This document shows, one piece after another, positions 3,342-63,998 of a stretch of DNA of 64,000 bases (the first letter of the stretch is position 1; each line of letters starts with the position of its first letter). This stretch comes from Rickettsiales bacterium. GTDB taxonomy: Bacteria; Pseudomonadota; Alphaproteobacteria; Rickettsiales; UBA8987. The position numbers and the translations under genes are program-made. The notes below the pieces were generated by a model that saw only the letters and a list, made by a program, of their open reading frames with translations, did not search any database and was not told the origin of the DNA. Location: contig JAHDCD010000002.1 in NCBI GenBank assembly GCA_020630095.1, positions 124,001-188,000 of the forward strand. Direction: 5' to 3'.

Positions 3342-4199
3342 GTGAAGCACTTCCTTTCAATAGATGATCTAAGACTTGCCGATATCCAAAAGATTTGGAA
3401 AAGAGCGGATAAAATTTCACGCTCTAAAAAGCTGAAAGGTAAAACTATCATTAATATCTTCTTTGAGGACTCCACGCGCACAAGAGCATCATTTGAAATT
3501 GCAGGTAAACAAGCCGGTGCAGATATTATTAATCTGGAAGTTGATAAATCATCGCTTTCTAAAAAGGAAACTACCGAGGATACTCTTTATACCTTAAACG
3601 CAATGAACCCTGATTTTCTAGTTATCAGAACATCAGATGAGTCACTTTTTGATAGAGTAAAAGGTAACCTAAACTGCTCAATTATTAATGCAGGAAATGG
3701 TAAGTTAGAGCATCCAACCCAAGCACTTTTAGATTGCTACGTTATCACCAGAAACACTGTTCAGAGCGAAGGTAGAATAATTACCATCATAGGTGATATT
3801 GCCCACTCTCGCGTAGCACGAAGTAATGTTAAACTACTAAAGGAACTGGGTTATGAAATCCGCGTAGCTGCACCAGAGTCCTTAAAATCAGAGGATTACA
3901 GCGAATTTAAGAATTTCAATTCACTAGAAGAAGCAATTAAAGATGCTAATTTTATAATGTGCCTACGTTACCAATATGAACGTATGGATAGTAAGGTTGA
4001 TGCCCCTAAAAATTTCCTACTTATGGAAGAAAAATTAAAGCTAGCACATCCGAATTGTAAAATACTTCATCCAGGGCCGGTTAATAGAGATATAGAAATT
4101 GAATCAAGCTTAGTAGATTCAGATAAAAGCCTAATTTTAGAACAAGTAAATGCTGGCGTAAAAACAAGGCAGGCACTGCTGGAGTTTTTAAGTGCATAA
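3342..4199 (+). CDS. pyrB: Aspartate carbamoyltransferase catalytic chain
   Basis: Condenses carbamoyl phosphate with aspartate, the committed step of pyrimidine synthesis. The carbamoyl-phosphate loop DSTRTRASFE (STRTR at 44-48), HPTQALLD (from residue 124) and HPGPVNRDIEI near the C-terminus are all present. The start is GTG (3342); no ATG fits the N-terminal MKHFLSIDDL. At 285 residues it is slightly shorter than the usual 300-310. Neither a regulatory chain nor pyrC is next to it. The stop overlaps the next gene by 8 bp, indicating translational coupling. Confidence 0.94.
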   Translation: MKHFLSIDDLRLADIQKIWKRADKISRSKKLKGKTIINIFFEDSTRTRASFEIAGKQAGADIINLEVDKSSLSKKETTEDTLYTLNAMNPDFLVIRTSDESLFDRVKGNLNCSIINAGNGKLEHPTQALLDCYVITRNTVQSEGRIITIIGDIAHSRVARSNVKLLKELGYEIRVAAPESLKSEDYSEFKNFNSLEEAIKDANFIMCLRYQYERMDSKVDAPKNFLLMEEKLKLAHPNCKILHPGPVNRDIEIESSLVDSDKSLILEQVNAGVKTRQALLEFLSA

Positions 4200-5457
4200 A
4201 TTACTATACATACTGCTTGTCATGTTATTTGCTGCATCAGCAGAAGCATCATCATTTAAAGATGAAATGCGTAAACTTGCTAAAAACTACTCTGAATTAA
4301 GGTCTGCAAGGGCGGAGTTAATAGCTAATAAACAAGATTCATTGCTACCAAGAAAACAGCTAAACCCAAGCATTTCAGGGTTTTACAGCATAAATCGTGA
4401 ACGTTCGGACAATAACTTCTCGGCAGATACCCAATACAGAACGCCAGAAAGCTATGGCATTAATTTAAACCAAGTAATTTTTGATGCCTCAAAGTACAAA
4501 GATATCGCAAAAGGTGAGCATCAATATGAAGCGGCGGTAAATAATTACTACGCTAAGGAGCAGGCAATTATTTTGAAGGCGATAGAGGTTATAATTGCAA
4601 TTAATCAGGCAGAAGCTGAAAATAAATTAAATAAAAATAATGTTAAGGCGCTTCAAAAACAGTTCGACACGGTACAGATTGAATATGATTCTGAAGTAAA
4701 AACTATCACCGACCTTAACCAAGCTAAGTCTAGGTTGGCGCTTGCCAAGGCTAGGCAGAAATTATCACAAACAAAATTGAACTCGGCTAAGAAGCAGTAT
4801 AAAAGAGTTTTTGGCTCTGCACCTAAAAAGGCAATAAATTTACATGAGTATAAAGGTAAGTTGAACGAGCTTAAGCGCGAGTTTGTTAAGCAAAATAATT
4901 TTGAAATTCTAAGCTATAATGCTCAGCTAGAAGCATCTAAAAAAGATGTAGAAATCGCACAATCAAACTTTTACCCAACAGTTGAACTAAACGCATCTGC
5001 ACAAAAGCAGGTTGGGGCATCTGCGTTCGGCAGTAACTTTGACAATGAAGATTACTCTGCAGGAATTAGAGTCAACGTACCAATATACCAGCGCGGAATT
5101 GAGTATACTCAATTAAAATCCGCTAAAGCCCGCCATGAGCAATTACAGGCGGATTACGATAATTTTGTATCAGAAAAATTAATAGAAGCCGAAATAGAAT
5201 ACGGCGAATATGAGGCGGCATTTGCAACGTATAACGCCAACAAATCAGCGGTTGATGCTAATAAAATCGCGTTAGAATCTATCCGTGAAGAATATAAAAA
5301 CGACACTAGAACTACGCTTGATGTGCTAGATCAAGAGCAAGAATTATTACAGGCTAACCTTGATTTATTAAACTCCGATAACGATATATTAAGAAAGCAT
5401 TTCCAGCTACGCGCCATTAATGGTAAGCTAACGTTAAAGCACCTTTTAGATGAATAA
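4192..5457 (+). CDS. tolC: TolC-family outer-membrane efflux protein
   Basis: Predicted trimeric outer-membrane channel that docks with inner-membrane exporters (RND or type I secretion). The 421 residues begin with a Sec signal peptide (KLLYILLVMLFAASAEAS) from a GTG start overlapping pyrB by 8 bp. Two OEP-type halves rich in long helices follow, each with a beta segment (residues about 70-95 and 260-300) and an ITDLNQAKSRLALAKARQ helix. The next gene is a DUF2497/PopZ-like protein, the neighbour seen beside tolC in many alphaproteobacteria. Family is clear; substrate unknown. Confidence 0.9.
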   Translation: MHKLLYILLVMLFAASAEASSFKDEMRKLAKNYSELRSARAELIANKQDSLLPRKQLNPSISGFYSINRERSDNNFSADTQYRTPESYGINLNQVIFDASKYKDIAKGEHQYEAAVNNYYAKEQAIILKAIEVIIAINQAEAENKLNKNNVKALQKQFDTVQIEYDSEVKTITDLNQAKSRLALAKARQKLSQTKLNSAKKQYKRVFGSAPKKAINLHEYKGKLNELKREFVKQNNFEILSYNAQLEASKKDVEIAQSNFYPTVELNASAQKQVGASAFGSNFDNEDYSAGIRVNVPIYQRGIEYTQLKSAKARHEQLQADYDNFVSEKLIEAEIEYGEYEAAFATYNANKSAVDANKIALESIREEYKNDTRTTLDVLDQEQELLQANLDLLNSDNDILRKHFQLRAINGKLTLKHLLDE

Positions 5458-5656
5458 TTCGCTAGACATAATCGCCGCGAAGATGAAAACTGCTGCTAAA
5501 GAAGATAAAAACTCGCCGTTAAGATTAACGGAAGTTATATCTAAAAAACAGGCCGTTGAACTAGATGATTATTTGAAGCAGGAGATTAAAATCTGGCTTG
5601 ATAACAACTTAGAGAAAATCACCCGCGAGGAAGTGGCTAAACACTTAAATAAATGA
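5450..5656 (+). CDS. Minimal PopZ/DUF2497-like protein
   Basis: A 68-residue acidic helical protein. LTEVISKK (about 26-33) followed by ELDDYLKQEIKIWLDNNLEK resembles the C-terminal part of PopZ/DUF2497 proteins, where an LTE/LTD segment precedes an LRPxLxxWLDxNLP helix pair that drives oligomerisation in the Caulobacter polar organising protein. The long N-terminal and Pro/Glu-rich spacer regions of PopZ are missing. It overlaps tolC by 8 bp and folK by 4 bp (ATGA). The tolC-DUF2497 order supports the assignment. What such a short version does is unknown. Confidence 0.7.
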   Translation: MNNSLDIIAAKMKTAAKEDKNSPLRLTEVISKKQAVELDDYLKQEIKIWLDNNLEKITREEVAKHLNK

Positions 5657-6114
5657 AAATCGTTTTATCATTAGGCTCTAACGAGGGCGATAAAGAGGCT
5701 AATATTAACAAGGCCTTAGAGCTTCTTGATCTTAAAAATCCTAAGGTTTCAGAGGGTTTTCATAATAAAGCATTACTTCCTAAAAATGCCCCAAAAGAGT
5801 GGGATATGGAGTTTATTAATATCTGTATTTCCGCCGAAACAGATAAAACTGCACAAGAAACTTTACAGCAAATCCATAAAATTGAAGATAAATTAGAGCG
5901 TAATCGTACTCGCGGTATTTGGAGTCCTAGAACTGTAGATATTGACATAATTTATTATGGTAACGAAATTATAAAGGAAGCGCATCTTCAAGTGCCACAT
6001 AAGCTAATGCACAAGCGTGACTTTGTACTTATTCCCTTACAAGAAATTGAACCAGATTTTATTCATCCAATTTTTAAGCTTACTACAAAAGAATTACTAG
6101 CATCTTTAGATTAA
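5653..6114 (+). CDS. folK: 7,8-dihydro-6-hydroxymethylpterin pyrophosphokinase (HPPK)
   Basis: Transfers pyrophosphate from ATP to 6-hydroxymethyl-dihydropterin in folate synthesis. The 153 residues show the HPPK signatures: LSLGSNEGD at the N-terminus, the ERNRTRGIWSPRTVDIDII motif with the Mg-binding Asp pair, and VPHKLMHKRDFVLIPLQEI. Length is typical. The start overlaps the preceding stop as ATGA. folP and folB are not adjacent, so the gene sits alone in a mixed operon. Confidence 0.95.
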   Translation: MKIVLSLGSNEGDKEANINKALELLDLKNPKVSEGFHNKALLPKNAPKEWDMEFINICISAETDKTAQETLQQIHKIEDKLERNRTRGIWSPRTVDIDIIYYGNEIIKEAHLQVPHKLMHKRDFVLIPLQEIEPDFIHPIFKLTTKELLASLD

Positions 6115-6132: not shown

Positions 6133-6852
6133 ATGGCTACTAACGCAAATAACGACAAAGCCAAGAAAAAGGCTGAACAAATATCCAAGAAAAAGAATTG
6201 GTATATTGATAGGTACAAGCGCGTTGCCGCACAACGCAACTGGTTACTAGGTATTACAATGCTTGCACTAGCTGGACTTTTATTAGCTGCATTCAGTTTG
6301 GTAATTATTGCAGATAGTAAAACTTTCCAACCATTCCTAATTCAAATTGATAAGCAGGTAGGTGTTGCCACAACTGTAGATGCTGGCTCTATTAAGCGTT
6401 ATTCATCAAAAGAATCAATTATTCGAAGCTATTTAGCACGTTATGTATTAGCGCGTGAAGGTTATGATCCAGGCAATTATAGATATTTCTACTATGGTTT
6501 AGTAAGAATTTTCTCTACCAAGCGTGTATGGCAAGAATTCTATAATACCATAGCCAAAAGTAACCCTAATAGCCCATTAAGGTTAGGTGGTAATACTGTA
6601 CAGAAGGCATTCATAAAATCTATCACGTTCCTAGATCAGCAACGAAATCTGGCATTAGTACGTTTTGCAATTAATCAGTATGATGGCTATTTAAAAACTA
6701 AAACTAAGACTGAGCATTTTACCGCTACAGTTGGCTTTAGATTCATCGATGACCTAACACTAAAGAAAAATGAGCGTTACTTTAACCCTCTAAACTTCCA
6801 AATTTTATCGTACACGAAAGAGACTGAGGACGTACAAAATGCAAAAGAATAA
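6133..6852 (+). CDS. virB8: VirB8-family type IV secretion protein
   Basis: Bitopic inner-membrane assembly factor of type IV secretion systems. After a Lys-rich cytoplasmic stretch comes WYIDRYKRVAAQRNWLLG and one membrane helix (about 42-62), as in VirB8. The periplasmic domain carries REGYD, NPNSPLRLGG and NPLNFQILSY, matching conserved VirB8 positions. The ATG at 6133 is preferred over an in-frame TTG at 6124. No virB6, virB9, virB10 or virD4 is nearby; the gene lies between folK and mrp and overlaps mrp by 14 bp. Dispersed T4SS genes are known in Rickettsiales. Membership in a working system cannot be judged from this window. Confidence 0.88.
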   Translation: MATNANNDKAKKKAEQISKKKNWYIDRYKRVAAQRNWLLGITMLALAGLLLAAFSLVIIADSKTFQPFLIQIDKQVGVATTVDAGSIKRYSSKESIIRSYLARYVLAREGYDPGNYRYFYYGLVRIFSTKRVWQEFYNTIAKSNPNSPLRLGGNTVQKAFIKSITFLDQQRNLALVRFAINQYDGYLKTKTKTEHFTATVGFRFIDDLTLKKNERYFNPLNFQILSYTKETEDVQNAKE

Positions 6853-7807
6853 TATTCTTGAAGCGCTGAAGTCTGTACCTTACTTAAATTCTAATATTGT
6901 TGATTTAGGTATTCTATCTTCACTCGCAATTAAAGATAAATCCATTGGCTTCATTCTAGATTTCACAGAGCAAAAATTATTGGATATCAAGTCATATGAT
7001 TCAGTTAAAAAACAATGTGAGGAGATATTAACTAAGCTAGGCGCTTCAGAAGTTAAAATTATTGTAACGGACGACTCCGACAGAAAATCTAAGAAGATAA
7101 GGCTACCTGCCGATAAAGTAATCATTGTGGCATCAGGTAAGGGTGGCGTAGGTAAAAGCTTTATTGCATCTAACCTTGCAACGCATTTGGCTAATAAGGG
7201 CAAAAAAGTTGGAATTATAGACGCGGACATTACGGGCCCTTCTTTAGGCCAAATATTTTTCGGGCAAAATCGTCCAGAGCCTGAAAGTAAAGAAGGTAAG
7301 CTAATACCAATAGAAAAGTATGGCCTAAAAATTCTTTCAATGGCTTTCCTAGCTGATGAAGGTGTGGTATGGCGTGGACCAATGCTCTCAAAGGCTTTGA
7401 ATCAGCTACTTATAGGTGCAAATTGGGGTGATTCACAGTTAGACTATTTAATTATAGATACTCCACCTGGCACATCAGACATCCACCTATCAATATTGGG
7501 TAGTTATTTAATAGATGGCTCAGTTATTGTTACTACTCCGCAGAAATTATCAGAAATAGACGTTAGAAAGGCTGAGAATATGTTCTCTAAGATGAATGTA
7601 CCCAACTCATGCAAAGTACTTAATATGAGCTATTTTGAAGATTCTCAGGGCAATAAGAATTATATCTTTGGTAAGTCGAAAGAGAAGAGTTCAGTAGAAA
7701 TTCCTATAATTCCCAGAATTTCTGAACTAGCAGATTCTGGCTATCCTGCAATATTAGAACTCCCATCATTAGAACAAGCATTTGACAAGATAGTCAAGAA
7801 TCTGTAA
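6839..7807 (+). CDS. mrp: Mrp/ApbC-type P-loop ATPase (Fe-S carrier family) lacking CXXC
   Basis: Iron-sulfur carrier family ATPase. The N-terminal 85 residues form a MIP18/DUF59-like domain. The deviant Walker A is GKGGVGKS at 100-107, followed by GIIDADITGPSL and a DTPPGTSD switch. In many Mrp/Nbp35 proteins the ENMSYF segment is followed by CPHC, the bridging-cluster cysteines. Here NMSYFEDSQGNKNYIFG has no cysteine, a variant I recall from other alphaproteobacterial Mrp proteins. Overlaps virB8 by 14 bp; last gene of the operon before an AT-rich palindrome and tRNA-His. Confidence 0.93.
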   Translation: MQKNNILEALKSVPYLNSNIVDLGILSSLAIKDKSIGFILDFTEQKLLDIKSYDSVKKQCEEILTKLGASEVKIIVTDDSDRKSKKIRLPADKVIIVASGKGGVGKSFIASNLATHLANKGKKVGIIDADITGPSLGQIFFGQNRPEPESKEGKLIPIEKYGLKILSMAFLADEGVVWRGPMLSKALNQLLIGANWGDSQLDYLIIDTPPGTSDIHLSILGSYLIDGSVIVTTPQKLSEIDVRKAENMFSKMNVPNSCKVLNMSYFEDSQGNKNYIFGKSKEKSSVEIPIIPRISELADSGYPAILELPSLEQAFDKIVKNL

Positions 7808-7819
7808 TTATACTGCACT

Positions 7820-7844
7820 ATATTCTTATATAAGAATATTTTAT
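7820..7844 (+). terminator. AT-rich palindrome with short T-run after mrp
   Basis: The 20-nt perfect palindrome ATATTCTTATATAAGAATAT (7820-7839) is followed by TTTTA, 12 bp after the mrp stop. It could form a weak intrinsic terminator, although the stem has almost no G/C. Confidence 0.4.
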
Positions 7845-7846
7845 CA

Positions 7847-7907
7847 TGGCGGATGTAGCTCTCCCGCGTCGAACAGGCGCAAAACAGTAATAACTGAGCT
7901 ACACCGC
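7847..7907 (+). repeat. Fragmentary copies of the tRNA-His 5' end
   Basis: TGGCGGATGTAGCTC (7847-7861) repeats the first 14 nt of the adjacent tRNA-His plus one flanking base. GAGCTACACCGC (7896-7907) is a near reverse complement of the same tRNA segment. The two pieces can form a 12-bp hairpin with one bulge around a 34-nt loop. This is neither a complete second tRNA nor a normal leader. It looks like debris of tRNA duplication or recombination. Confidence 0.7.
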
Positions 7908-7913
7908 ATTTGT

Positions 7914-7991
7914 GGCGGATGTAGCTCAGTTGGTTAGAGCGCTGGTTTGTGGTACCGGAGGTCGCGGGTTCGAACCCCGTTATTCGCCCCA
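7914..7991 (+). tRNA. tRNA-His (GTG)
   Basis: Complete cloverleaf. The acceptor stem includes the extra 5' G (G-1) opposite C73, the identity element of tRNA-His. The D-arm is TAGCTCAGTTGGTTAGAGC and the anticodon GTG lies at 7949-7951 within a CTGGT/ACCGG stem. The T-arm GCGGGTTCGAACCCCGT is regular and the 3' CCA is encoded. Two G-T wobbles occur in the acceptor stem. Confidence 0.97.
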
Positions 7992-8004
7992 CTTCAATAA
8001 ATAA

Positions 8005-9912
8005 TTAGAATTGTAAAGGTCTTCTATCGGTCGGGAAGAAGTCGTTATAGAATGAACGATCTTCAATCGATACACCCTGACCCTTCTGTATAGTTGCTTT
8101 AATAAAGATCACAGTTTCGACAACTTGATTATCTTTTTCAACAGTTTTAAATGCTCTACCTAGTAACGGAACTCTAGAAGCCCCTGGAATACCGCGGTCA
8201 ACATTATTAGAACGTTCACTCATTAAACCGCCAATAACCATAATTTCGCCATTCTTCACACGCATAACCGTATCAATTTCACGCACTTCTACAACAGGGA
8301 TGCTAGAAGGTTCAATATCATCAGTATTCTCATTAGTATTTAAGATAAACTGTGTTGCAGGATCAGTTACAGTACCAGTAATACGCGTTAAAGTAGGGCG
8401 TACAGATAACATTACTTCATCACGAACTAAATCAATTGAAGGCTGAATGTTAAGTATTACACCAATTGGTACAGATTTAATTTGAGAGTTAACATCAAAA
8501 CGAGTTCTAGCAATGCCATTAAGATCATTGTCAGTGCTTTCAGTTACATCAAGCAGTGTGTATACAAAATTCTCAGCGAATGAAAGTATAGCATGCTGAT
8601 TATTCATAGCTGAAATACGCGGGCTAGATAATGTACGCGTTGCACCAAATTGCTCTACTAGATCAATAGCGGCTCCAATTGATAAGTTAGATGCGCCAAA
8701 TAATGAGCCAGGTAGTACTCCAATTGAGAAATCTTGTCCCGCGGCACCAATACCGCTAAATGAACCAAAGCTACTATCTACAGTAGTTCTGTCGCCAATA
8801 CCTATATTCCAATCAATACCACTTCTATGCCTATCATCTAACTCAACTTCAACTACTTTAGCTTCAATTAGTACTTGTGAATTAAATGATATAGAGATGA
8901 AATCTAGATAATCTCTAATCTCTCTATGTTGTTTAGAGTTAGCTAAAATAGAGATAATACCAGTATGCTTATTAACCGCTATAACCTTTGATTCTAGTGG
9001 TTTACCAGTAACTGCAGAAGTTACCTGATTAGTACCAACAGATCGTCCTTTATTATTAGCACTTGTTTCTTGAACCTGCTGTGGAGCATCTTGTGCTTCA
9101 GCCCCGGGGTTATAGTTTAAAATAATATTGTCTAAACCTTCTTTAACATTTTCCCAAATATTACCACCGTCAGAATTTTGATTTAAGTTACTGGTAGAAC
9201 CCGTATTTACCGAACTTCCTTCACCTGAAGAGCTAATAGAGGTAGACGTTTTTACCGTACTAGTTGAATTACGTTCAACATTAAGCAAGTTCATACGATA
9301 GTTCAGTACATAAGGCTTATCCTTAGATATCTTAACAGTACCGTTTTCAACTCTAATTACTAAATTTAGCTGTCTTGCTATACGCGCTAGAATCTCAGAA
9401 ACTCTACGTTTTCTAATATTAAGTAATACGCCACCCTCAATGGTCGGATCAATTTCAATATCTAAATCAGCCGATTGCGCCAATTGTAGTATAACATCTT
9501 TAATTGGTACATCTTCGGTAACGGATATTGAAAGGCGCTTATCATTAGGAATTTTAGGAATAATTAGTTCATCAGAAGTTGCTCTGTAAAGCGTAGTTGA
9601 TGAACTTGGATAACCTTTAATATTTTTATCAGAGAATTTTGAGCCTCGGCCATATAAATCTCTAATAAAATCAGATCTTGTTTGCCCTGTAACTTTATCT
9701 AGCGGGTCAATTGATCTGCCTGAGGTGAAGCGTTGGTTAGAATCATAATAAGTGGGGTCAATAGGGTCTTCACCAGGTTTGTATATTTCGCCATTTAGCG
9801 TAGCTTGGCCACGAGCGCGCAAATCGTCTATCGTGCCGACTTCACTGGCGTAATCACAACCGGATACACCTATTAAAATTAATAGAGAAAATATTAGATT
9901 TTTATAATTCAT
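8005..9912 (-). CDS. Secretin of type IV pilus / MSHA type (MshL/PilQ/GspD family), lipoprotein
   Basis: Outer-membrane secretin ring through which a pilus or type II-like system passes. From the ATG at 9912 the protein is 635 residues, with a lipoprotein signal ending GVSGC (Cys19) and a plausible AGGTAG ribosome binding site upstream, so the longer frame to 9966 is rejected. An STN/secretin N0-like domain (LSISVTEDVPIKDVILQLA) lies in the first 200 residues, then a Ser/Asn-rich linker. The C-terminal secretin domain holds the VLIEAKVVEVELDD segment and the RVPLLGRAFK gate-like segment. Prepilin peptidase lies upstream on the same strand; the remaining pilus genes are not here. Confidence 0.88.
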   Translation of the reverse strand: MNYKNLIFSLLILIGVSGCDYASEVGTIDDLRARGQATLNGEIYKPGEDPIDPTYYDSNQRFTSGRSIDPLDKVTGQTRSDFIRDLYGRGSKFSDKNIKGYPSSSTTLYRATSDELIIPKIPNDKRLSISVTEDVPIKDVILQLAQSADLDIEIDPTIEGGVLLNIRKRRVSEILARIARQLNLVIRVENGTVKISKDKPYVLNYRMNLLNVERNSTSTVKTSTSISSSGEGSSVNTGSTSNLNQNSDGGNIWENVKEGLDNIILNYNPGAEAQDAPQQVQETSANNKGRSVGTNQVTSAVTGKPLESKVIAVNKHTGIISILANSKQHREIRDYLDFISISFNSQVLIEAKVVEVELDDRHRSGIDWNIGIGDRTTVDSSFGSFSGIGAAGQDFSIGVLPGSLFGASNLSIGAAIDLVEQFGATRTLSSPRISAMNNQHAILSFAENFVYTLLDVTESTDNDLNGIARTRFDVNSQIKSVPIGVILNIQPSIDLVRDEVMLSVRPTLTRITGTVTDPATQFILNTNENTDDIEPSSIPVVEVREIDTVMRVKNGEIMVIGGLMSERSNNVDRGIPGASRVPLLGRAFKTVEKDNQVVETVIFIKATIQKGQGVSIEDRSFYNDFFPTDRRPLQF

Positions 9913-9928
9913 ATATCTACCTGATATA

Positions 9929-10036
9929 GTAAAAAACAGCATGCTATTTTTTACAAAAGCTAGCATGAGCTAGCTTTTCGCTGGCGTAGGCCTAGCGAGT
10001 ATTAATAAATTCTATGAATTTATTAACCAAAAAACA
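9929..10036. repeat. Double-palindrome element, copy A
   Basis: Outer palindrome around 9929-9954. Stem 1 is AAAAGCTAGC (9955-9964)/GCTAGCTTTT (9969-9978). The core 9979-9999 is CGC-rich and contains GCGTAGG and TAGCGAG. Stem 2 is an 11-bp perfect hairpin, 10002-10012/10016-10026. AAAAAACA occurs directly repeated at 9931-9938 and 10029-10036, like a target duplication. The element lies between the secretin and prepilin peptidase genes and supplies the stop codon of the latter. Confidence 0.6.
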
Positions 10037-10679
10037 AATGACCTGTTACTGCGCCAATAAATAGCGAAATACATAACGCTGGTGCAAATGGAAAGTAGCT
10101 ATCTTCCCTTTTGCTACGTAGAACAAGCCCACTTAATATACCGAATATACCAGCCAGAAACAAATACAAGCTAATTATTTCAATGGGCATAAAAAGGAAT
10201 GACGCGCCCAAGAACTTAACATCCCCCAAGCCTAGTCCCTCTGTACCTTTCCATTTAAGCATTAATAAGCGTAACCCAAAGCCAAGAGCTAGTGCTAATA
10301 GAGGCATATAGATGGTCTGTAATTCAAGGCCACTATAGTATAAGCCAATTATAGCCAGAGCTATATTTAACTCATCGGGTATGATGTAATGGTCAAAATC
10401 TATCACTGTAATAACCACGCATAAAAACAGCAGACCATAAAAAACATAAGGTAAATTTAAAATTGTAATTAATGTAAAAGAGATGGCAAAGAATATCTCA
10501 AGATACCTATAGCGCGTTGAAATCTTAGCCCCACACGCTCTGCATTTTGAATGAATTAATGGTATTAAATCAAATAATTTAAGCTTAACGCCGCACGCTG
10601 TACACTCAGATCTATCAAATATTACAGGTTTACCTTCTGGTAACCTATGAATAAGTACACTAGCAAATGAGCCGGCCAC
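10023..10679 (-). CDS. pilD: Prepilin peptidase / N-methyltransferase (PilD family)
   Basis: Inner-membrane aspartyl protease that cleaves type IV prepilins and methylates the new N-terminus. Two zinc-type pairs appear (CTACG and CRACG), then catalytic-type Asp motifs in VIDFDHYIIPDE and GLGLGDVKFLG, with several membrane helices. The only standard start is GTG at 10679, which opens inside the conserved GLVAGSFASVLIHRLP segment. The same frame reads IILGLVAGSF further upstream without ATG, GTG or TTG before a stop near 10720, overlapping trpA. The true start may therefore be non-canonical. The stop lies inside repeat element A. Confidence 0.87.
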   Translation of the reverse strand: MAGSFASVLIHRLPEGKPVIFDRSECTACGVKLKLFDLIPLIHSKCRACGAKISTRYRYLEIFFAISFTLITILNLPYVFYGLLFLCVVITVIDFDHYIIPDELNIALAIIGLYYSGLELQTIYMPLLALALGFGLRLLMLKWKGTEGLGLGDVKFLGASFLFMPIEIISLYLFLAGIFGILSGLVLRSKREDSYFPFAPALCISLFIGAVTGHLFFG

Positions 10680-11482: not shown

Positions 11483-12223
11483 TTATTTCCTGCTCATATG
11501 GTTTAAATAGTTACCATTACCAACATTCCTTGGGGATTTTCTAATAGATAACTGCACGTAGTTTATAGCCTCATAAATCGCAGTTACCATATCTTTTCCA
11601 CGTGCTAATTCGCAGGCAGTTGCAGTAGCTAATGCACAGCCAGTACCATGGAAGTCATTTTGTGTAGTACGAACGGAACGGAAAGTATATTCTTCATTCT
11701 GATGGTTCAGCACGTCCGTAATAACAGAACCTTCCTTATGCCCACCTTTAACTAGCACTGAAACATCTATTTCATCTAGCTGAGAGCTAAACTTTTTATA
11801 TTCATCTAAGTTTGGTGTTATTAAGGTGCAAAGCGGAAATAATTTTTCTACTAAAACATCTAATGCTTCAGAATCGTATAATTCTTCGTCAGTAGATGAT
11901 ACCATAACGGGATCTAGTATAACAGGTGCTCCGGCAAATAGATTTCCAACTGCGCTTGCTACAACTTCAACTACTTCCGCATTATGTAGCATGCCAATTT
12001 TTATAGCATCTACACCAACTCCTTCCGAGATGGCAATAATTTGTTTACGAATCAATTCGGGTGAAACTGCTTCTTGCATATAGAATTTATCAGCGCTTTG
12101 TGCAGTCACAGCTGTTACTACAGAAGATGCATAGCACGAAAATGCAGAAGCTACTTTAATATCCGCCTGAATTCCTGCCCCTCCTGAAGGGTCTGATCCA
12201 CCTATGGTTAATAATCGAAACAT
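11483..12223 (-). CDS. thiD: Hydroxymethylpyrimidine/phosphomethylpyrimidine kinase
   Basis: Phosphorylates HMP and HMP-P for thiamine synthesis. Ribokinase fold with TIGGSDPSGGAGIQADIKV at the N-terminus, VTAVTAQ, the VILDPVMVSS segment and the catalytic anion hole DFHGTGCALATA. The 246 residues are slightly short but complete. The start codon sits at the edge of a 17-bp perfect palindrome (12222-12258), so the translation start could be masked in RNA. I looked for a TPP riboswitch upstream and saw none. Confidence 0.94.
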   Translation of the reverse strand: MFRLLTIGGSDPSGGAGIQADIKVASAFSCYASSVVTAVTAQSADKFYMQEAVSPELIRKQIIAISEGVGVDAIKIGMLHNAEVVEVVASAVGNLFAGAPVILDPVMVSSTDEELYDSEALDVLVEKLFPLCTLITPNLDEYKKFSSQLDEIDVSVLVKGGHKEGSVITDVLNHQNEEYTFRSVRTTQNDFHGTGCALATATACELARGKDMVTAIYEAINYVQLSIRKSPRNVGNGNYLNHMSRK

Positions 12224-12339
12224 AATTAATAATAAATTCTAAATTTATTATTAATTATCAAAATAAAGGCTGACACGCCTTTATTTTGCGCGCGAAGCGC
12301 AAGCGTAGTGTTAATAATTTTTTGTTAAAAATTATTAAC
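12222..12339. repeat. Double-palindrome element, copy B
   Basis: Three hairpins in series between divergent genes. First, a 17-bp perfect AT palindrome (12222-12238/12242-12258). Second, an 11-bp stem with AAAATAAAGGC (12260-12270) and GCCTTTATTTT (12277-12287). A G/C-rich core (12288-12309) contains GCGAAGCGCAAGCGTAG. Last, a 13-bp perfect stem (12310-12322/12327-12339). Same plan as copies A, C, D and E with different arm sequences. Confidence 0.6.
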
Positions 12340-12388
12340 AAAAGACAAGAGCTTGTAATGAAGTTAAGAATATTTATCTTTGTTGGCA

Positions 12389-13525
12389 ATGCCTAATAAA
12401 AATAAAATAATTATCGTTGGTGGTGGCTTGTCGGGTTTACTAACCGCGGTTGCACTAAAAAATATCGGCGAAATTACCTTAATAGACCCCAATATCAATA
12501 AGCCTTATAAGGATTTTAGAACCACAGCTATCAGTCATGGCTCATCATTATTTCTAGAAAAACTAGGTATTTGGAAAGATATAAAAGAGTTAGGCGCTAT
12601 AGATAAAATCAAAATCTTTGATAATGAGGGTGAACGCGATTCAGTTTTCTCTAGTGATTTTGAGAATAACTCCCATCCAATGGGTTATATTATCGAGAAT
12701 AAATATATTATCTCTGCATATAAAAAAGCTTTGCCTAAAGGCATTGCCATTGTTGAAGATTTCGTATCATCTATTGATAAAGAAAATAACCAGATAACCT
12801 TAAAATCAGGGGATCAGCATAAATTTGATATCTTAATCGCGGCAGATGGTAGAAACTCATTCGTACGCGAGCATCTTAATATAAATACGCGCTCTAAAAG
12901 CTATAAACAGTCGGCTATGGTTTCCATTGTTGAACATGAAAAGCCTCACAATAATATCGCTGTAGAACGCTTTACCGCCGCAGGCCCATTAGCCATTCTA
13001 CCAATGGCGGATCAGCATAAATCTTCAATTGTATGGTCTGAAGAAAATGAAATAGCCAAAAAAATATTTGAATCAGATGATTTCCAAAGCCTATTAGAAC
13101 GTGGCACTTCAAAAGATATCGGCAAAATTACCAAAATTACCGATAGAGCCATGTATCCGCTTTCATTAAAATATATGCGTAAAATGGTGCATAACGATAT
13201 TATTTTTATCGGTGATGCCGCCCATGCCATTCACCCTATCGCAGGGCAGGGCTATAATCTAACTATACGCGATATTGAGGCCTTAAAAGAGAAGTTAGAA
13301 GGAAATATTTCGCTAGGTTTTGCCCTGAAATCTGGGCTAGAGCAATTTTCATCTTCGCGCATGAGAGATATTTATAAGCTTATTGCCGCCACGGACGGAC
13401 TAAACTCTCTATTCTCAACGGATAACTTCGCCGTGAAGGCGCTGCGCAGAGTAGGGGTTGGCATATTCAGCAAGTCCACAAAAGTTAAAGACTATACCAT
13501 CAAGTACGCAATGGGACTGGGGTAG
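12389..13525 (+). CDS. UbiH/UbiF/Coq6-family FAD-dependent ring hydroxylase
   Basis: Flavin monooxygenase, probably hydroxylating a ubiquinone precursor ring. The Rossmann FAD motif IIIVGGGLSGLLTAVAL opens the protein, LIAADGRNSFVRE is the DG motif, and GDAAHAIHPIAGQGYNLTIRD is the second FAD/ribityl motif characteristic of the UbiH family. The ATG at 12389 is chosen over an in-frame TTG at 12380. It stands alone between repeat elements. Which ring position (C5, C6 or C1) it modifies cannot be told from sequence. Confidence 0.88.
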   Translation: MPNKNKIIIVGGGLSGLLTAVALKNIGEITLIDPNINKPYKDFRTTAISHGSSLFLEKLGIWKDIKELGAIDKIKIFDNEGERDSVFSSDFENNSHPMGYIIENKYIISAYKKALPKGIAIVEDFVSSIDKENNQITLKSGDQHKFDILIAADGRNSFVREHLNINTRSKSYKQSAMVSIVEHEKPHNNIAVERFTAAGPLAILPMADQHKSSIVWSEENEIAKKIFESDDFQSLLERGTSKDIGKITKITDRAMYPLSLKYMRKMVHNDIIFIGDAAHAIHPIAGQGYNLTIRDIEALKEKLEGNISLGFALKSGLEQFSSSRMRDIYKLIAATDGLNSLFSTDNFAVKALRRVGVGIFSKSTKVKDYTIKYAMGLG

Positions 13526-13540
13526 TGAATTTTCTAATAC

Positions 13541-13768
13541 GTCATTCCAAAAAAACGACAGCGAAGCTGAGTGCATATCCGGAATCCAGTTAGTCTATGC
13601 TTGCGTTAGCAAGCACTTATAGTAAATTAGAATTTACTATCAACAAAAGCTTGAACTTTTGTTACGCCGCGTAGCGAGTGTATCTAAATTACATCGTATT
13701 CACGATGTAATTTAGAAAAGACTATGCTATTTAATGCTCTGGATTCGCCGATCAAGTCGGCGAATGAC
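13541..13768. repeat. RPE-like GTCATTCC repeat interrupted by double-palindrome element copy C
   Basis: Outer parts (13541-13589 and 13739-13768) resemble the GTCAT(T/C)CC...GGAATGAC repeats at 17.1 and 53.3 kb. Between them lie hairpins 13619-13628/13631-13640 (10 bp) and 13643-13649/13656-13662 (7 bp), a core with GCCGCGTAGCGAG (13663-13680), and a 15-bp perfect stem 13683-13697/13702-13716. AG(T/A)CTATGCT occurs directly repeated at 13592-13601 and 13719-13728, as if the inner element had inserted with a 10-bp duplication. Confidence 0.6.
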
Positions 13769-14387
13769 AATTGAAGGAATCAATCGCCCGAGCAATATTA
13801 TCACTATTCCAAACAGATGAAATAACGGCGATGAAATCTGCACCGGCATCTTTTAAAGGTTGGGCATTATCAGCATTAATTCCACCAATTGCAACACATG
13901 GGATATTAGCAAACTCATTCCAGAATGTAAGTAATTCAACTTCAGCTTTGCGTAGTTTTTCAGCGGGTTTACTGGTGGTCGGGTAAAATGCCCCGAAGGC
14001 TACATAATTAGCGCCTTGCTCGCCTGCGCTAAATGCTAAATCAAGTGAGTCATAACAGCTCGCGCCGATAATCTTACCTTCGCCTAATATTTCACGCGCT
14101 TGCTTTACAGAAACATCATCTTCACCTAGATGTACACCAGATGCTCCCACTTCGCTGGCAACCTTTACATTGTCATTAATTATAAGTTCAACTTTATGCT
14201 TATCACAAACTGGCTTAATTGCCTTTGCGTATTCAAGCATTAACTCGTTAGATACTTTACCATAAGGTTCAAGCTTCAAGCGTAATTGAAACACCGCAAC
14301 CTTGCCCGTTGCTAATGCCTCATCAAGTTTAAGCAAAAAGTTTTCTAGCTCAAAATTCGGTGGAGATATTAAGTATAACTTAGCCAT
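13752..14387 (-). CDS. thiE: Thiamine-phosphate synthase
   Basis: Couples HMP-PP with the thiazole phosphate to give thiamine phosphate. TIM barrel with VAVFQLRLK, LIINDNVKVA, GVHLGEDDVS, the GASCYDS strand, FGAFYPTTSKP and VAIGGINADN, matching the ThiE phosphate and pyrophosphate sites. It overlaps the queF stop by one base (TAATG), so the two are coupled. The last few residues (CHSPT) and the stop are encoded by the edge of the intergenic repeat, suggesting the repeat replaced the native C-terminus. Confidence 0.92.
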   Translation of the reverse strand: MAKLYLISPPNFELENFLLKLDEALATGKVAVFQLRLKLEPYGKVSNELMLEYAKAIKPVCDKHKVELIINDNVKVASEVGASGVHLGEDDVSVKQAREILGEGKIIGASCYDSLDLAFSAGEQGANYVAFGAFYPTTSKPAEKLRKAEVELLTFWNEFANIPCVAIGGINADNAQPLKDAGADFIAVISSVWNSDNIARAIDSFNCHSPT

Positions 14388-14845
14388 TAGCCGCGCCCTT
14401 TATAGTTTTGAACATCCTGTTCAGGTATATAAACGCCAGCAGGTTTTTCATCAGTTTGATAGAAAATATCAATAGGAATACCACCGCGTGGATACCAGTA
14501 ACCACCGATTCGTAGCCATTTAGGTTTGCATGTTTCTATAATTTTCTTGGCAATAGATATCGTACAGGCTTCATGGAAATCGCCGTGATTGCGGAATGAG
14601 GTAAGGTATAGTTTTAACGATTTACTCTCTACAATTTTATCATTTGGAACATAATCTATAACTAAATGCGCAAAGTCTGGCTGACCAGTTACAGGGCAAA
14701 TAGAGGTAAATTCAGGACATGAGAAACGAATGTTATAATCAACATCTGTATGCGGATTATCAACTGCTTCTAGCTCTGCCTTTTCTGGCGATGCAGCTGC
14801 ATAAGAGGTTGAGCCTAGCTTTTCTAAATCTTGGTAATTGGTCAT
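14387..14845 (-). CDS. queF: NADPH-dependent 7-cyano-7-deazaguanine reductase
   Basis: Reduces preQ0 to preQ1 in queuosine synthesis. The 152-residue unimodular (YkvM-like) form has the nucleophilic Cys50 in [12 protein letters not shown], Asp57 seven residues on, the QueF motif [20 protein letters not shown] and RGGIPIDIF near the C-terminus. The ATG follows directly on a hairpin/T-run. The GGGG in the 3' arm of that hairpin (14853-14856) is the only apparent ribosome binding site. thiE follows with a 1-bp overlap. Confidence 0.95.
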
Positions 14846-14877
14846 AAAAAATCCCCATGTAAATATACACAGGGATT
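14846..14877 (-). terminator. Porin terminator whose hairpin contains the queF ribosome binding site
   Basis: On the minus strand a 10-position stem (14868-14877 with 14850-14859, including G-T wobbles and no obvious interruption) is followed by six T's that run directly into the queF ATG. It looks like an intrinsic terminator for the upstream porin. Its 3' arm also carries the GGGG that would serve queF as a Shine-Dalgarno, so RNA folding could limit both read-through and queF initiation. Confidence 0.6.
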
Positions 14878-14911
14878 CTAATTAAAATAATCTTAAGTTA
14901 CAACAGCTTTA

Positions 14912-16369
14912 CTAGAAGCTAAGTTCAATACCAGCTAAAGTGATTATACCATCTCTATCAGCAAAAGCCGCATTATCATGAGTAAAGTCAACAAAGTTGA
15001 ACTCTAAATATGGAGCAATACCAGCAGCAAAGTTATAGTCTAAACCAAGTGAGATATTTTCAAATTCAACGCCATTAGCATTAGTTGAATCATCAATTTC
15101 AGAAGCAAAATAACCTAATGAAGCACCTATACCAGCAATTTCATAAGCTATAGCTAAGTCATAATATTCACCATCGCGAGTAGCATCTAGGTCGCCATGG
15201 CTACCATAGGAGCCGGCAACACTTAAGCCTTTATGATCTATACCTAAGCCTAATGCCCAAGCAGATCTATCTTCATTAGCGCCTTTACCTGAACCAAATT
15301 CACCAGTTAATGATGCATGAATTGCAGTGCCAGCTAATTCATTAATAATTCTAGAGTAAAGTGCACCAATCTGAACTAAGTTTTCTTGAGTTCTTACGTC
15401 TGCAACTGGGTTAAATATGTTTTGACCAACAGAGTTTGACTGTGGTGCAAATGATAAACCAAATTGAAGTCCATTAATGCTAGGAGAATAGTATGAAACT
15501 TTAGTGGCATCTAGCTCATTATTAAAGCCTGCCTTCTGAACGTTATAAGATACAGAACCTGGTTTGATAATAGTATCAACAGGGTTGGTTGTATAAGCAG
15601 TATTATTTCCAGCTAAGAAGTGGTGGAAATCACCTGAAGTACCACCGGTACCTCTTTGTATATTAGCAGAAGAAACGGCTAATCTAGTTTCAGCACCTTC
15701 AACGCCACCTAGCTCAAATCGACCAGCTTTATTTTCAACATAAAGGAATGTTTTATCAGCATTGAAACCATCATTTCTAGCGTCAGATGAAACATCACCT
15801 TCTAGCTCAATAACGGCACCATATTCTAGGCCTCTATCTGTTTCAGCAGAGATTTTGAAGTGAATCTCAGTATCATTTCTAAATGCGTGCTCATTACCTT
15901 GGTTACCATTTATGAAATCATAAGGATTAACGCCGGCTTGGAAGTCCATGAATCCACCTAGAGTAATATCTAAGCCTGTTCTTTCAGATTCCAAAGAAGA
16001 TGTATTAACAACTTTCTCAACAACTTTAGTTTTAGTTACAGTATTTTGAACTGCTTTTGGCTGTTCCAGTTGAACAGTTCTAACTGCAGGAGCCTTCTGA
16101 ACAGTAATAGCTGGCGCAGTATATGTTGGTGCCGAGGTGCGCACTGTAGGAGTTGCCGACGGAAGTGTGTAAGTATTACTTTGAACAGTTGGCGCTCTAT
16201 ACGTCGTCGTAGTTGGAGCCTGATAAGTAACTGTATTCGTAGTAGATGGCTGATATAATTTAACAGCGGGTTGATACGAAGGTACTTCGTAAGTGTAATT
16301 TAGTCCACCTGCCATCGCAGAGCTAGACGCAATAAAAGTTGCCACAAAAGCATAAGATAATTTCTTCAT
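14912..16369 (-). CDS. Outer-membrane porin with Pro/Thr-rich N-terminal segment
   Basis: Predicted general-diffusion porin. A signal peptide (MKKLSYAFVATFIASSSAMA) is followed by about 90 residues rich in Pro, Thr, Val and Tyr (repeated YQAPT/YRAPT-like units). From GGFMDFQAGV near residue 140 a Porin_4-type barrel of alternating strands runs to the terminal aromatic residue (LAGIELSF). GAGG-type loop-3 equivalents are not obvious. A good ribosome binding site (AAGGA) precedes the ATG. The proline-rich extension is unusual for this family and may span periplasm or bind the cell wall. Confidence 0.85.
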   Translation of the reverse strand: MKKLSYAFVATFIASSSAMAGGLNYTYEVPSYQPAVKLYQPSTTNTVTYQAPTTTTYRAPTVQSNTYTLPSATPTVRTSAPTYTAPAITVQKAPAVRTVQLEQPKAVQNTVTKTKVVEKVVNTSSLESERTGLDITLGGFMDFQAGVNPYDFINGNQGNEHAFRNDTEIHFKISAETDRGLEYGAVIELEGDVSSDARNDGFNADKTFLYVENKAGRFELGGVEGAETRLAVSSANIQRGTGGTSGDFHHFLAGNNTAYTTNPVDTIIKPGSVSYNVQKAGFNNELDATKVSYYSPSINGLQFGLSFAPQSNSVGQNIFNPVADVRTQENLVQIGALYSRIINELAGTAIHASLTGEFGSGKGANEDRSAWALGLGIDHKGLSVAGSYGSHGDLDATRDGEYYDLAIAYEIAGIGASLGYFASEIDDSTNANGVEFENISLGLDYNFAAGIAPYLEFNFVDFTHDNAAFADRDGIITLAGIELSF

Positions 16370-56578: not shown

Positions 56579-57072
56579 AACTTTTAGAATATGACACAGA
56601 TAAGTTAAAATAAAGTTAATAAATTTATAAAAATTAACTTCCGGCGATTATATCAGATAGATATAAATAATCCTATAAAGAAAAAGTGGTGCTGCAAGAA
56701 AAGCAAGCTACTAGCTATGTATCAAAATACGCTGTTAAGGGCTAAAATACTGGGAATTTTACCAAATTTACAGCGAAATGCTCTGATTTCAGCTATTTCA
56801 GCAATTTTTAATTAAGTCCTGAAGCCATTTACAAGGCACATTTCCCGCATTCCCTGTTAACATTTAAATAGCGAATTTATGTTCTCTGATATATAATGTG
56901 GAACAATAATTATAAGCTTAATAGAACAAACTAAAACCTAGTTCTCCATTACATGAAACATCATTATTGATGTAAATTAGCGTAATATCACTAAAATCTT
57001 TAATATTTAGAAATCAAGGTCGTTTGCTAACGTTTTAAAGGCAGTATTAACTTTTCAGGTCAGGCAAACTTA
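56579..57072. other. AT-rich gene-free segment at possible island edge
   Basis: No open frame of note on either strand. It contains the 20-bp near-copy of the tRNA-Thr 3' flank (56674-56693) and GGGAA/TTCCC-containing stretches (ACTGGGAATTTTACC near 56750 and CATTTCCCGCATTCCC near 56838) like non-coding remnants often left near integration sites. The latter comparison is only an impression. Confidence 0.45.
56674..56693 (+). repeat. Direct repeat matching the tRNA-Thr 3' end (putative attL)
   Basis: TATAAAGAAAAAGTGGTGCT matches 63909-63928 at 19 of the first 19-20 positions apart from one A/G change and the last base. At the right copy the GTGGTGC portion is the 3' end (CCA plus discriminator) of tRNA-Thr. 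Confidence 0.5.
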
Positions 57073-61939: not shown

Positions 61940-62677
61940 TTAATTCCTTTTATTTTTATTTTTATTTTTATTTTTTGCTTTTACTGCAAAGTTAATGTTA
62001 ATATTTTTACTAACCCATTCCGCTTTTGGGTCTGAGTTTTTACCTATTTTATAATCTAACCTATTAATATCGAAGCTGCCTTTAGCATGTTCATCTAATT
62101 TGGTTATTATTGCCTCATATGAAATTTCTTTTGTTATATCTCTGATAGTAAGATTACCAATAACTATGTATTTACCATTTTCTTTTTCAATTCTAGTAGA
62201 TTCAAAAATACTATTTTCATAATTCTCTACATCAAACCAATCTTTTGATGGCAATGTGCCATCATACATTTTATTATCCGTTTCTGCTGAAGCATTATTA
62301 ATGACTATTTTAATTTTAGAATTCGCAACATCGTCAAAATCAAAATTTATTTGAGCATCAAAATCATTAAACTTCCCTTTAAATTTATTACCTGCATGAG
62401 TGCCAGAAAATTCAATATAAGATTCACTTTTTAAAAGTTCAAATTCACTTGCCTTTAGGTTTGGAGTGAGTCCAAAAATAATAAGAATAATAATTAGGCT
62501 TTTAAAAAAGCTCATTCTTTTAAGTAAATTTTCTTTATCAAGTATATAATGCTTAACTACTGCTAATATATGGAAGATAATCATAATTATAATGGTTAAC
62601 GCTAAGTAAAAGTGAGTATCTTTTGAGAGGTTATAAGCCTCCATATTTCCAGCTAAATTAGGAATGTAGAGGCTCAA
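61940..62677 (-). CDS. YceI-domain protein with remnant of cytochrome b561 (5'-truncated fusion)
   Basis: Residues about 75-240 form a YceI lipocalin-like domain ([31 protein letters not shown] to [14 protein letters not shown]). The first 54 residues read YIPNLAG, then a helix [27 protein letters not shown], matching only the last helix and heme-His region of cytochrome b561, a known fusion partner of YceI. The other b561 helices are missing: homology stops near 62668, where the HsdM remnant begins. The listed start is a TTG; ATG 62644 or 62515 ([15 protein letters not shown], a signal peptide) may be used, so a stand-alone YceI could still be exported. Confidence 0.75.
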
Positions 62678-63687
62678 GCGAAGGGCATATAAGAAAGTTC
62701 TTAATTGAAGAGAAAAACTACCTAGATGCCGTAATAGGCTTACCAGCTAATATTTTCTACGGAACATCAATTCCAACCTGCATTTTAGTATTTAAAAAAT
62801 GCCGTGAAGACCAAGAAAATATTTTATTCATCGATGCATCTAATGATTTTGAAAAAGCTAAAAACCAAAATTACCTGCGTGAAGAAGATATTACTAAAAT
62901 TATCAATACTTACGCCAACAGAGAAGTAATTGAGAAATACAGCTACCTCGCGCCAATATCCGAAATTAAGGAGAATGATTATAATCTAAATATTCCACGC
63001 TACGTTGATAAGCTTGCCTTTGTGCAGTCCTTCCGTGAGCTGATGCGGTTGCATAATGTGTTAAAAACATTCGCTAACTTCAAATTTGATGATACCAATA
63101 TGGCATCGCAAGAGTTTGAGGATTATAAAAGTAAATATCTTGATATTCATGATTCTGTAAAGCAACAGAATGAAGGTGAAGAGAAAGTTTCAGTTCTTGA
63201 TGATATTGATTTTGAGCTGGAATTAATACAGCGAGATGAGATTAATGTTTCATATATTCTTAATCTGCTAGCAGAACTTCATCAAAATGAAGGTGATGAA
63301 GGGGGTTTTGAGAAGCAGAAAAAGGCAATTCTTGATACATTGGCAAGTGAACAGAAATTACGTTCTAAGCGTGATTTAATTAGTAAATTCATAGAGGAGA
63401 ACTTGCCTAAAATATCTGATGCTAACGAAATTGAAGTTGAGTTTATGAACTTCTGGAAAGGTGAGCGTAAGAAGGCGTTTAACGAGATAGTAGAAGAAGA
63501 GGGGTTAATTCAAGAAAAGGCAGAAAAATTAGTTCAAGATTATCTGTACACAAGCCGTAAGCCACTACGTGATGACGTGATGGAAGCCCTAGAAAAACCT
63601 CCAACCCTTTTACAGCGTAAAAAAATCTATGACAAAGTTACTAATAAAATAACTACTTTTGTTGAAAAGTTTGAAGAAGGTATTTAA
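62668..63687 (+). pseudogene. Chimeric remnant: HsdM C-terminal piece fused in frame to HsdR C-terminal piece
   Basis: One open frame with no ATG near its 5' edge. Codons 62668-63009 read [20 protein letters not shown], then AVIGLPANIFYGTSIPTCIL, and end NDYNLNIPRYVD: the C-terminal part of a type I N6-adenine methylase, after its NPPF motif. From 63010 the frame reads KLAFVQSFRELMR, then DDIDFELELIQRDEINVSYILNLL and PLRDDVMEALEKPPTLLQRKKI, the C-terminal helical domain of a type I restriction subunit HsdR. Catalytic and SAM motifs, hsdS and the nuclease/helicase parts are absent. The last 221 codons (from 63022) could be translated from a GTG. Confidence 0.82.
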
Positions 63688-63921
63688 TTTCTATCTAGCC
63701 CTATAAAACTTATATAGTTTTCGACATGCCCTAGGATTAAAAAACCTAGCTAGCCCCTCTCCTATCTGGCCATTATTTGCCATCATTTATATACCCCTTA
63801 AGTAAATTAAATATAGTCTAGTTTAATCTCTAGGGGTTCAACTAGGGTTCAACAGGGTTTTTAGCTCTAAAATGCAAAAATTTAGAATTGACGTAAACTG
63901 CTGAAATATATAAAGAAAAGG
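63688..63921. other. Non-coding tail beside tRNA-Thr
   Basis: AT-rich, without an open frame. It includes CTAGG/CCTAG and AAAAC/GTTTT inverted repeats near 63705-63750 and a short tandem run (AGGGGTTCAACT, AGGGTTCAAC, AGGGTTT) at 63831-63860. The right copy of the att-like direct repeat begins at 63909. Confidence 0.5.
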
Positions 63922-63928
63922 TGGTGCC
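63909..63928 (+). repeat. Direct repeat overlapping the tRNA-Thr 3' end (putative attR)
   Basis: TATAAAGAAAAGGTGGTGCC; see the partner at 56674-56693. Its right part is the encoded CCA, discriminator and first acceptor bases of tRNA-Thr. Confidence 0.5.
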
Positions 63929-63998
63929 TGTTGAGAGATTCGAACTCCCGACCCGCTGATTACAAATCAGCTGCTCTAGCCAACTGAGCTAAACAGGC
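63922..63998 (-). tRNA. tRNA-Thr (TGT)
   Basis: Complete cloverleaf on the minus strand. Acceptor GCCTGTT pairs with AACAGGC, discriminator A, CCA encoded. D-arm TAGCTCAGTTGGCTAGAGC. Anticodon stem GCTGA/TCAGC with loop TTTGTAA, giving anticodon TGT (63962-63964). T-arm CGGGAGTTCGAATCTCT is regular. Confidence 0.97.

Follow-up and report, generated by a model that had tools for sequence, protein, structure and literature searches.

An in-frame HsdM::HsdR fusion frame as the probable remnant of an EcoR124-like type I operon in a Rickettsiales genome

In the 64,000-nucleotide stretch of Rickettsiales DNA that was analysed as a whole (hereafter the window, whose numbering is used throughout), a plus-strand open frame at 62662-63687 carries 115 residues of HsdM followed, without a frameshift, by 225 residues of the tail of HsdR. 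This fused frame, referred to below as the scar, is very probably a pseudogene, the remnant of an EcoR124-like type I operon after two rearrangements; rather than a protein of a new kind, it is most likely an ordinary leftover. Truncation, the lack of an ordinary start at the front and a join to an unrelated, truncated neighbour, which are the marks of a pseudogene formed by deletion, were all observed. The coordinates of the features are collected in Table 1.

Table 1. Features of the HsdM::HsdR scar and its immediate surroundings in the window
Feature	Coordinates	Strand	Basis
Cytochrome b561-YceI remnant: last part of b561 and complete YceI domain	61940..62677	-	Pfam YceI, Ni_hydr_CYTB, L131 similarity
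Junction 1: truncated cytochrome b561 (-) against headless hsdM (+), at ~62668	62662..62674		Both similarities begin there
HsdM catalytic domain, C-terminal part (115 aa), without start, NPPF or HsdM tail	62665..63009	+	Pfam N6_Mtase, TIGR00497, L029 alignment
Junction 2: HsdM::HsdR, GTTGAT AAGCTT	63004..63015	+	Comparison with intact relatives
HsdR C-terminal helical domain (225 aa) and stop codon	63010..63687	+	Pfam EcoR124_C, PADLOC REase_I only, L029 alignment
tRNA-Thr (tgt), next to the remnant on the right, 3' end towards it	63922..63998	-	ARAGORN

The frame is preceded by a stop codon at 62659-62661 and its 340 codons run free of stops to the terminal stop at 63685-63687, which bears out a preliminary description of this DNA in that the join is in frame and no stop interrupts the HsdR part. 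On comparison of the translation of 62665-63684 with Pfam, N6_Mtase matched residues 2-116 (profile positions 190-305 of 311; 121 bits against a cut-off of 20.4) and EcoR124_C matched residues 109-336 (profile positions 32-260 of 260; 195.5 bits against a cut-off of 23.1). The two matches overlap at residues 109-116; since the overlapping word, through NLNIPRYVD, is HsdM in the relatives, the HsdR part proper begins at 63010. When 63010-63684 was compared alone, EcoR124_C was matched at profile positions 39-260 of 260 with 196.4 bits, which identifies this part as an HsdR C-terminal helical domain. Alignment with the two families, N6_Mtase on the left and EcoR124_C on the right, therefore yields the same halves as the preliminary description had drawn, with HsdM up to NLNIPRYVD at 63009 and HsdR from 63010. 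Additionally, TIGR00497 (hsdM) matched the HsdM part at profile positions 375-488 of 515 with 112.9 bits, under its cut-off of 242.75. In a related operon (L029), the HsdM part aligns with residues 359-472 of a 516-residue HsdM and the HsdR part from residue 733 or 734 of a 952-residue HsdR; counted on this operon, the hsdM remnant has lost about 358 residues at its front and about 44 at its tail.

The nature of the join becomes apparent from intact relatives. A pattern search matched at least 586 stretches; at least 549 of these could be confirmed, and the 80 best were retained. Two EcoR124 (IC-like) type I operons studied in full, L022 and L029, have the order hsdM, hsdS, one further ORF and hsdR; the HsdM part of the scar is 75 and 78% identical and its HsdR tail 54 and 52% identical to them, respectively. 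In both, hsdM stands ahead of hsdR on one strand, as the HsdM and HsdR parts do in the scar. The scar lacks hsdS, both ends of hsdM and roughly three quarters of hsdR. Amongst the matches listed, 66 loci carry the two parts together on the plus strand; hsdM comes before hsdR in 20 of them, and in all 20 the break points lie 3474-5649 bp apart. Given this gene order and spacing, a deletion of about 3.5-5.6 kb would account for the join, in agreement with the earlier proposal that hsdS and most of hsdR were deleted with a break near 63009/63010. In the remaining 46 of these 66 listed loci hsdR comes first, an order from which a simple deletion would not yield the join and which counts against the deletion account; however, the identity of the HsdR tail, 43.3-54.9% in the 20 hsdM-first loci as against 28.2-43.9% in the 46 hsdR-first loci, argues against an hsdR-first parent.

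At the break itself, 77 of 78 relatives show D-T-F as the continuation of HsdM; in HsdR the residue immediately ahead of the break is D in 10 of 23, and the one immediately following it is K in 8 of 23 (relatives among the best 80 of at least 549 confirmed matches). Judged from the sequence, it is possible that 3-4 bases, GAT or GATA, were common to both ends of the deletion, as in deletions between very short repeats. A random join falls in frame one time in three, so the in-frame join is no sign of function. Compared with disrupted or scrambled hsd loci in general, the scar differs in that its join happens to be in frame and lies between two different subunits.

A second break lies at the left edge of the frame. 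The similarity to HsdM starts at residue 2 (62668) in most of the loci compared, and on the minus-strand frame the similarity to cytochrome b561 starts at residue 4 (L131) or 5 (L132), corresponding to 62668 or 62665. As both similarities break at about 62668, two unrelated genes are cut at one point, and this point is a second junction at which hsdM has lost its front as well as its tail. The preliminary description was right about the HsdM::HsdR join but incomplete at this edge, where it had overlooked the junction with the truncated b561-YceI gene. The minus-strand frame encodes a YceI protein preceded, in frame, by the last part of cytochrome b561; Pfam YceI is matched at 3-150 of 150 and Ni_hydr_CYTB at 134-176 of 179, the latter with 23.1 bits and hence under its cut-off of 30.1, and the b561 part shares 50% identity over 56 residues with a separate frame of another genome (G040, L131). 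An inner ATG ahead of what by eye looks like a signal-like stretch may still yield a complete YceI protein.

The motif NPPF or NPPY is the defining catalytic motif of type I HsdM. Neither form is present in the translation of the fused frame, and ELKRRG, GSGKT and DECH are absent as well. In L029 all four motifs lie outside the parts that were kept, NPPF at position 299 of HsdM, and ELKRRG, GSGKT and DECH, which we take to be the nuclease, Walker A and DEAD-box motifs, at positions 133, 267 and 378 of HsdR. No in-frame ATG, GTG or TTG occurs in the fused frame before the GTG at 63022, and none at all in the HsdM part; with this GTG as the first ordinary start, usual initiation is possible for the HsdR part only. 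Type IIG single-chain enzymes function and so hold catalytic domains. Such restriction-modification enzymes, for example AloI, unite methyltransferase and restriction-enzyme parts in one chain (according to an excerpt of PMC3874165), and in this they resemble the fused frame; the fused frame differs from them in lacking every catalytic motif checked.

We consider that the frame is presumably not expressed. Between 62000 and 64000, 12 sigma-70-like sites were found as against 8.2 (sd 3.3) in shuffled sequences; three of the 12, with starts at 62082, 62248 and 62553, are on the plus strand, none of them within the fused frame. The last of the three ends at 62581, 80 bases ahead of the frame, so that transcription of the frame is possible, which counts against this view.

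The age of the scar was approached through conservation. A leave-one-out test was made with 78 HsdM and 23 HsdR sequences from the best 80 of at least 549 confirmed matches, with identity limits of 68% for HsdM and 43% for HsdR and with minus-strand and weaker matches left out; the 23 HsdR loci are the 20 hsdM-first loci, two with no HsdM match in the stretch covered (L041 and L048) and one with hsdR first (L053). None of 57 conserved columns is changed in the HsdM half, whose score ranks 37th from the lowest of 79. In the HsdR half, three of 43 such columns carry a substitution (I to V, E to D and R to K), a number matched by two and surpassed by one of the 23 others, and the score of this half ranks 5th from the lowest of 24; L053 is an outlier with 14 changes at conserved columns. 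In a simple model, about 5.3% of single substitutions in the fused frame would create a stop, and the probability that the frame is still open at 1% neutral change is 0.58 if indels are left out and 0.21 if one indel accompanies every ten substitutions, falling to at most 0.066 at 5% neutral change. The scar is, on this reckoning, probably young. The intact frame and the nearly unchanged conserved positions may also fit selection on the HsdR tail, under which 340 stop-free codons would also be expected, and this counts against simple drift. The preliminary description had offered the alternative of a very recent join or a tail still expressed; a young age is likely in view of the conserved columns (0 of 57 and 3 of 43 changed), whereas the strict choice between the two falls away with a one-in-three chance of joining in frame and a probability of 0.21-0.58 of staying open at 1% change.

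It is conceivable, though unlikely, that the cell carries an intact operon which was collapsed or misjoined at 63010 (and 62668) during assembly. The genome is in 13 contigs, which favours such an error; however, it is rated 100% complete with 0.02% contamination, and two separate errors, at 62668 and at 63010, would be required. When the full-length HsdR and HsdM of L029 were compared with the organism's own genome, the missing parts were found on no other contig, and further matches were confined to C8 and C13 at 29-38% identity. The absence of these parts from a genome rated complete speaks against misassembly.

Further type I loci occur in this genome. Six Methylase_S matches were found, on C4, C8 and C13 and none on C2, and the set of hsdM, hsdS and hsdR is incomplete at the scar. 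Frames resembling complete hsdM, hsdS and hsdR occur on C8 and C13 (the HsdR of C13 by eye), and on C4 an N6_Mtase match is accompanied by Methylase_S matches. One type I locus (L020) consists of hsdM at 6714-8297, an ORF of 201 residues, hsdS at 8969-10252, three ORFs and an hsdR of 1025 residues at 11963-15040; beside it, on the other strand at 4178-5836, lies a frame that by eye is like a large serine recombinase. A third set (L021, 7567-13766) has an hsdM of 483 residues, two ORFs of about 200 residues, an hsdS of 393 residues and, by eye, an hsdR of 776 residues. The ORFs between hsdM and hsdS in this set look by eye like small membrane proteins, and a similar-looking small ORF occupies the matching place on C8 (L020, 8371-8976).

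A further reading, which we regard as very improbable, is that the HsdR tail works as a stand-alone protein, started at GTG 63022 or ATG 63043, which binds methyltransferase cores and blocks or tunes restriction. The 221 open codons from GTG 63022 and the retention of 40 of 43 conserved columns would suit it. However, this GTG encodes the V in a segment (FV or FI, followed by FR) which recurs in intact HsdR relatives, and is hence an ordinary inner codon; the 12 promoter-like sites compare with 8.2 (sd 3.3) in shuffled sequences, with the plus-strand starts all upstream of the frame. Moreover, the only EcoR124_C match in the genome is the one in the fused frame, so that a retained tail would lack an evident partner of its own type, a point that makes a function less plausible, and the remaining matched HsdM proteins share 29-34% identity with the type of the scar. 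Similarly slight is the chance that the scar has been taken over, the internally started tail occupying the methyltransferase cores of incoming EcoR124-like systems; if true, a lost restriction system would leave behind an inhibitor of its own kind. The sole footing of such an inhibitor is the helical tail of EcoR124I HsdR, which is thought to join in assembly with HsdM (in an excerpt of PMC5248579).

That the fused frame is one genuine gene family, an HsdM with a long helical tail, deserves practically no credence: the match of PADLOC PDLC03031 (MTase_I) extends over residues 2-291 and that of one locus (L050) over residues 2-170, but PDLC03031 scores 106.1 bits on the HsdM part alone and 93.9 bits with the tail, the tail is matched by HsdR models (EcoR124_C and, as the single PADLOC family on the HsdR part alone, the type I restriction enzyme REase_I), the L050 frame is an HsdM continuing VDTFEEEE as others do and stopping soon after, and the PDB matches are split. 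Amongst the 12 PDB sequences matched, residues 2-117 are covered by the best HsdM (3lkd) and residues 109-298 by the best HsdR (3evy); coming from the HsdM side, the match that extends deepest beyond the join (7vru_A, an HsdM chain) ends at residue 153. Alignment end to end with one family, which the preliminary description had named as fatal to a chimera, was thus looked for, and two families were found instead.

The same fusion was not encountered elsewhere. Six of 54 other genomes gave matches, none over both halves and the furthest ending at residue 136, and none of the best 80 of at least 549 confirmed matches covered both halves, the furthest being L050; L050, L083 and L008 continue as HsdM frames which end soon after. 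Amongst viral contigs, all seven matching loci match the HsdM part only, and amongst plasmids 206 records match, in none of which any one place covers as much as 80% of the query; the five records listed are all annotated as subunit M. A deletion fusion of HsdM and HsdR was not found in the titles and abstract openings of the literature searched. As regards the site, the ETF-QO protein used as an anchor has a match in 7 of 7 genomes of the family including the organism's own, and is full-length only in the latter and in four others (G001-G004). Around ETF-QO in these four, neither an intact operon nor a tRNA-Thr was found, and of ten proteins encoded near the scar only ETF-QO recurs, plus one neighbour in G001. 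The want of an intact site counts against the operon explanation, but with three of these stretches as short as 4.1-8.7 kb the result carries little weight.

On the preferred explanation, an operon of hsdM, hsdS, another ORF and hsdR would have stood between the cytochrome b561-YceI gene and the tRNA-Thr gene. A deletion of the size given above would have joined hsdM at about codon 472 to hsdR at about codon 733 (L029 numbering), in frame by chance, and a second rearrangement, most simply also a deletion, would have taken the front of hsdM together with that of the adjoining b561 gene. The frame so formed, with neither an ordinary front start nor catalytic motifs, would give no working enzyme and would have been drifting, probably briefly.

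A direct repeat was noticed around this tract (56674-56692 and 63909-63927, 18 of 19 bases identical), its right copy consisting of the last 6 bases of the tRNA-Thr and 13 further bases outside it. Between the copies lie 7.2 kb with the scar and with frames that by eye resemble a cluster of redox genes. The repeat may delimit an integrated island, but of 300 stretches of 140 bases drawn at random from the window, 15 match similarly within 12 kb upstream.

The remnant indicates that this genome once had a further type I system, besides those on C8 and C13 and, going by the M and S matches, on C4, and that the tract adjoining the tRNA-Thr gene has been rearranged at least two times. It also calls for caution in annotation, since a restriction protein might be recorded for the fused frame though no catalytic part remains. 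Were the tail expressed, it would allow one to see in a natural setting whether the helical HsdR domain is able to act by itself.
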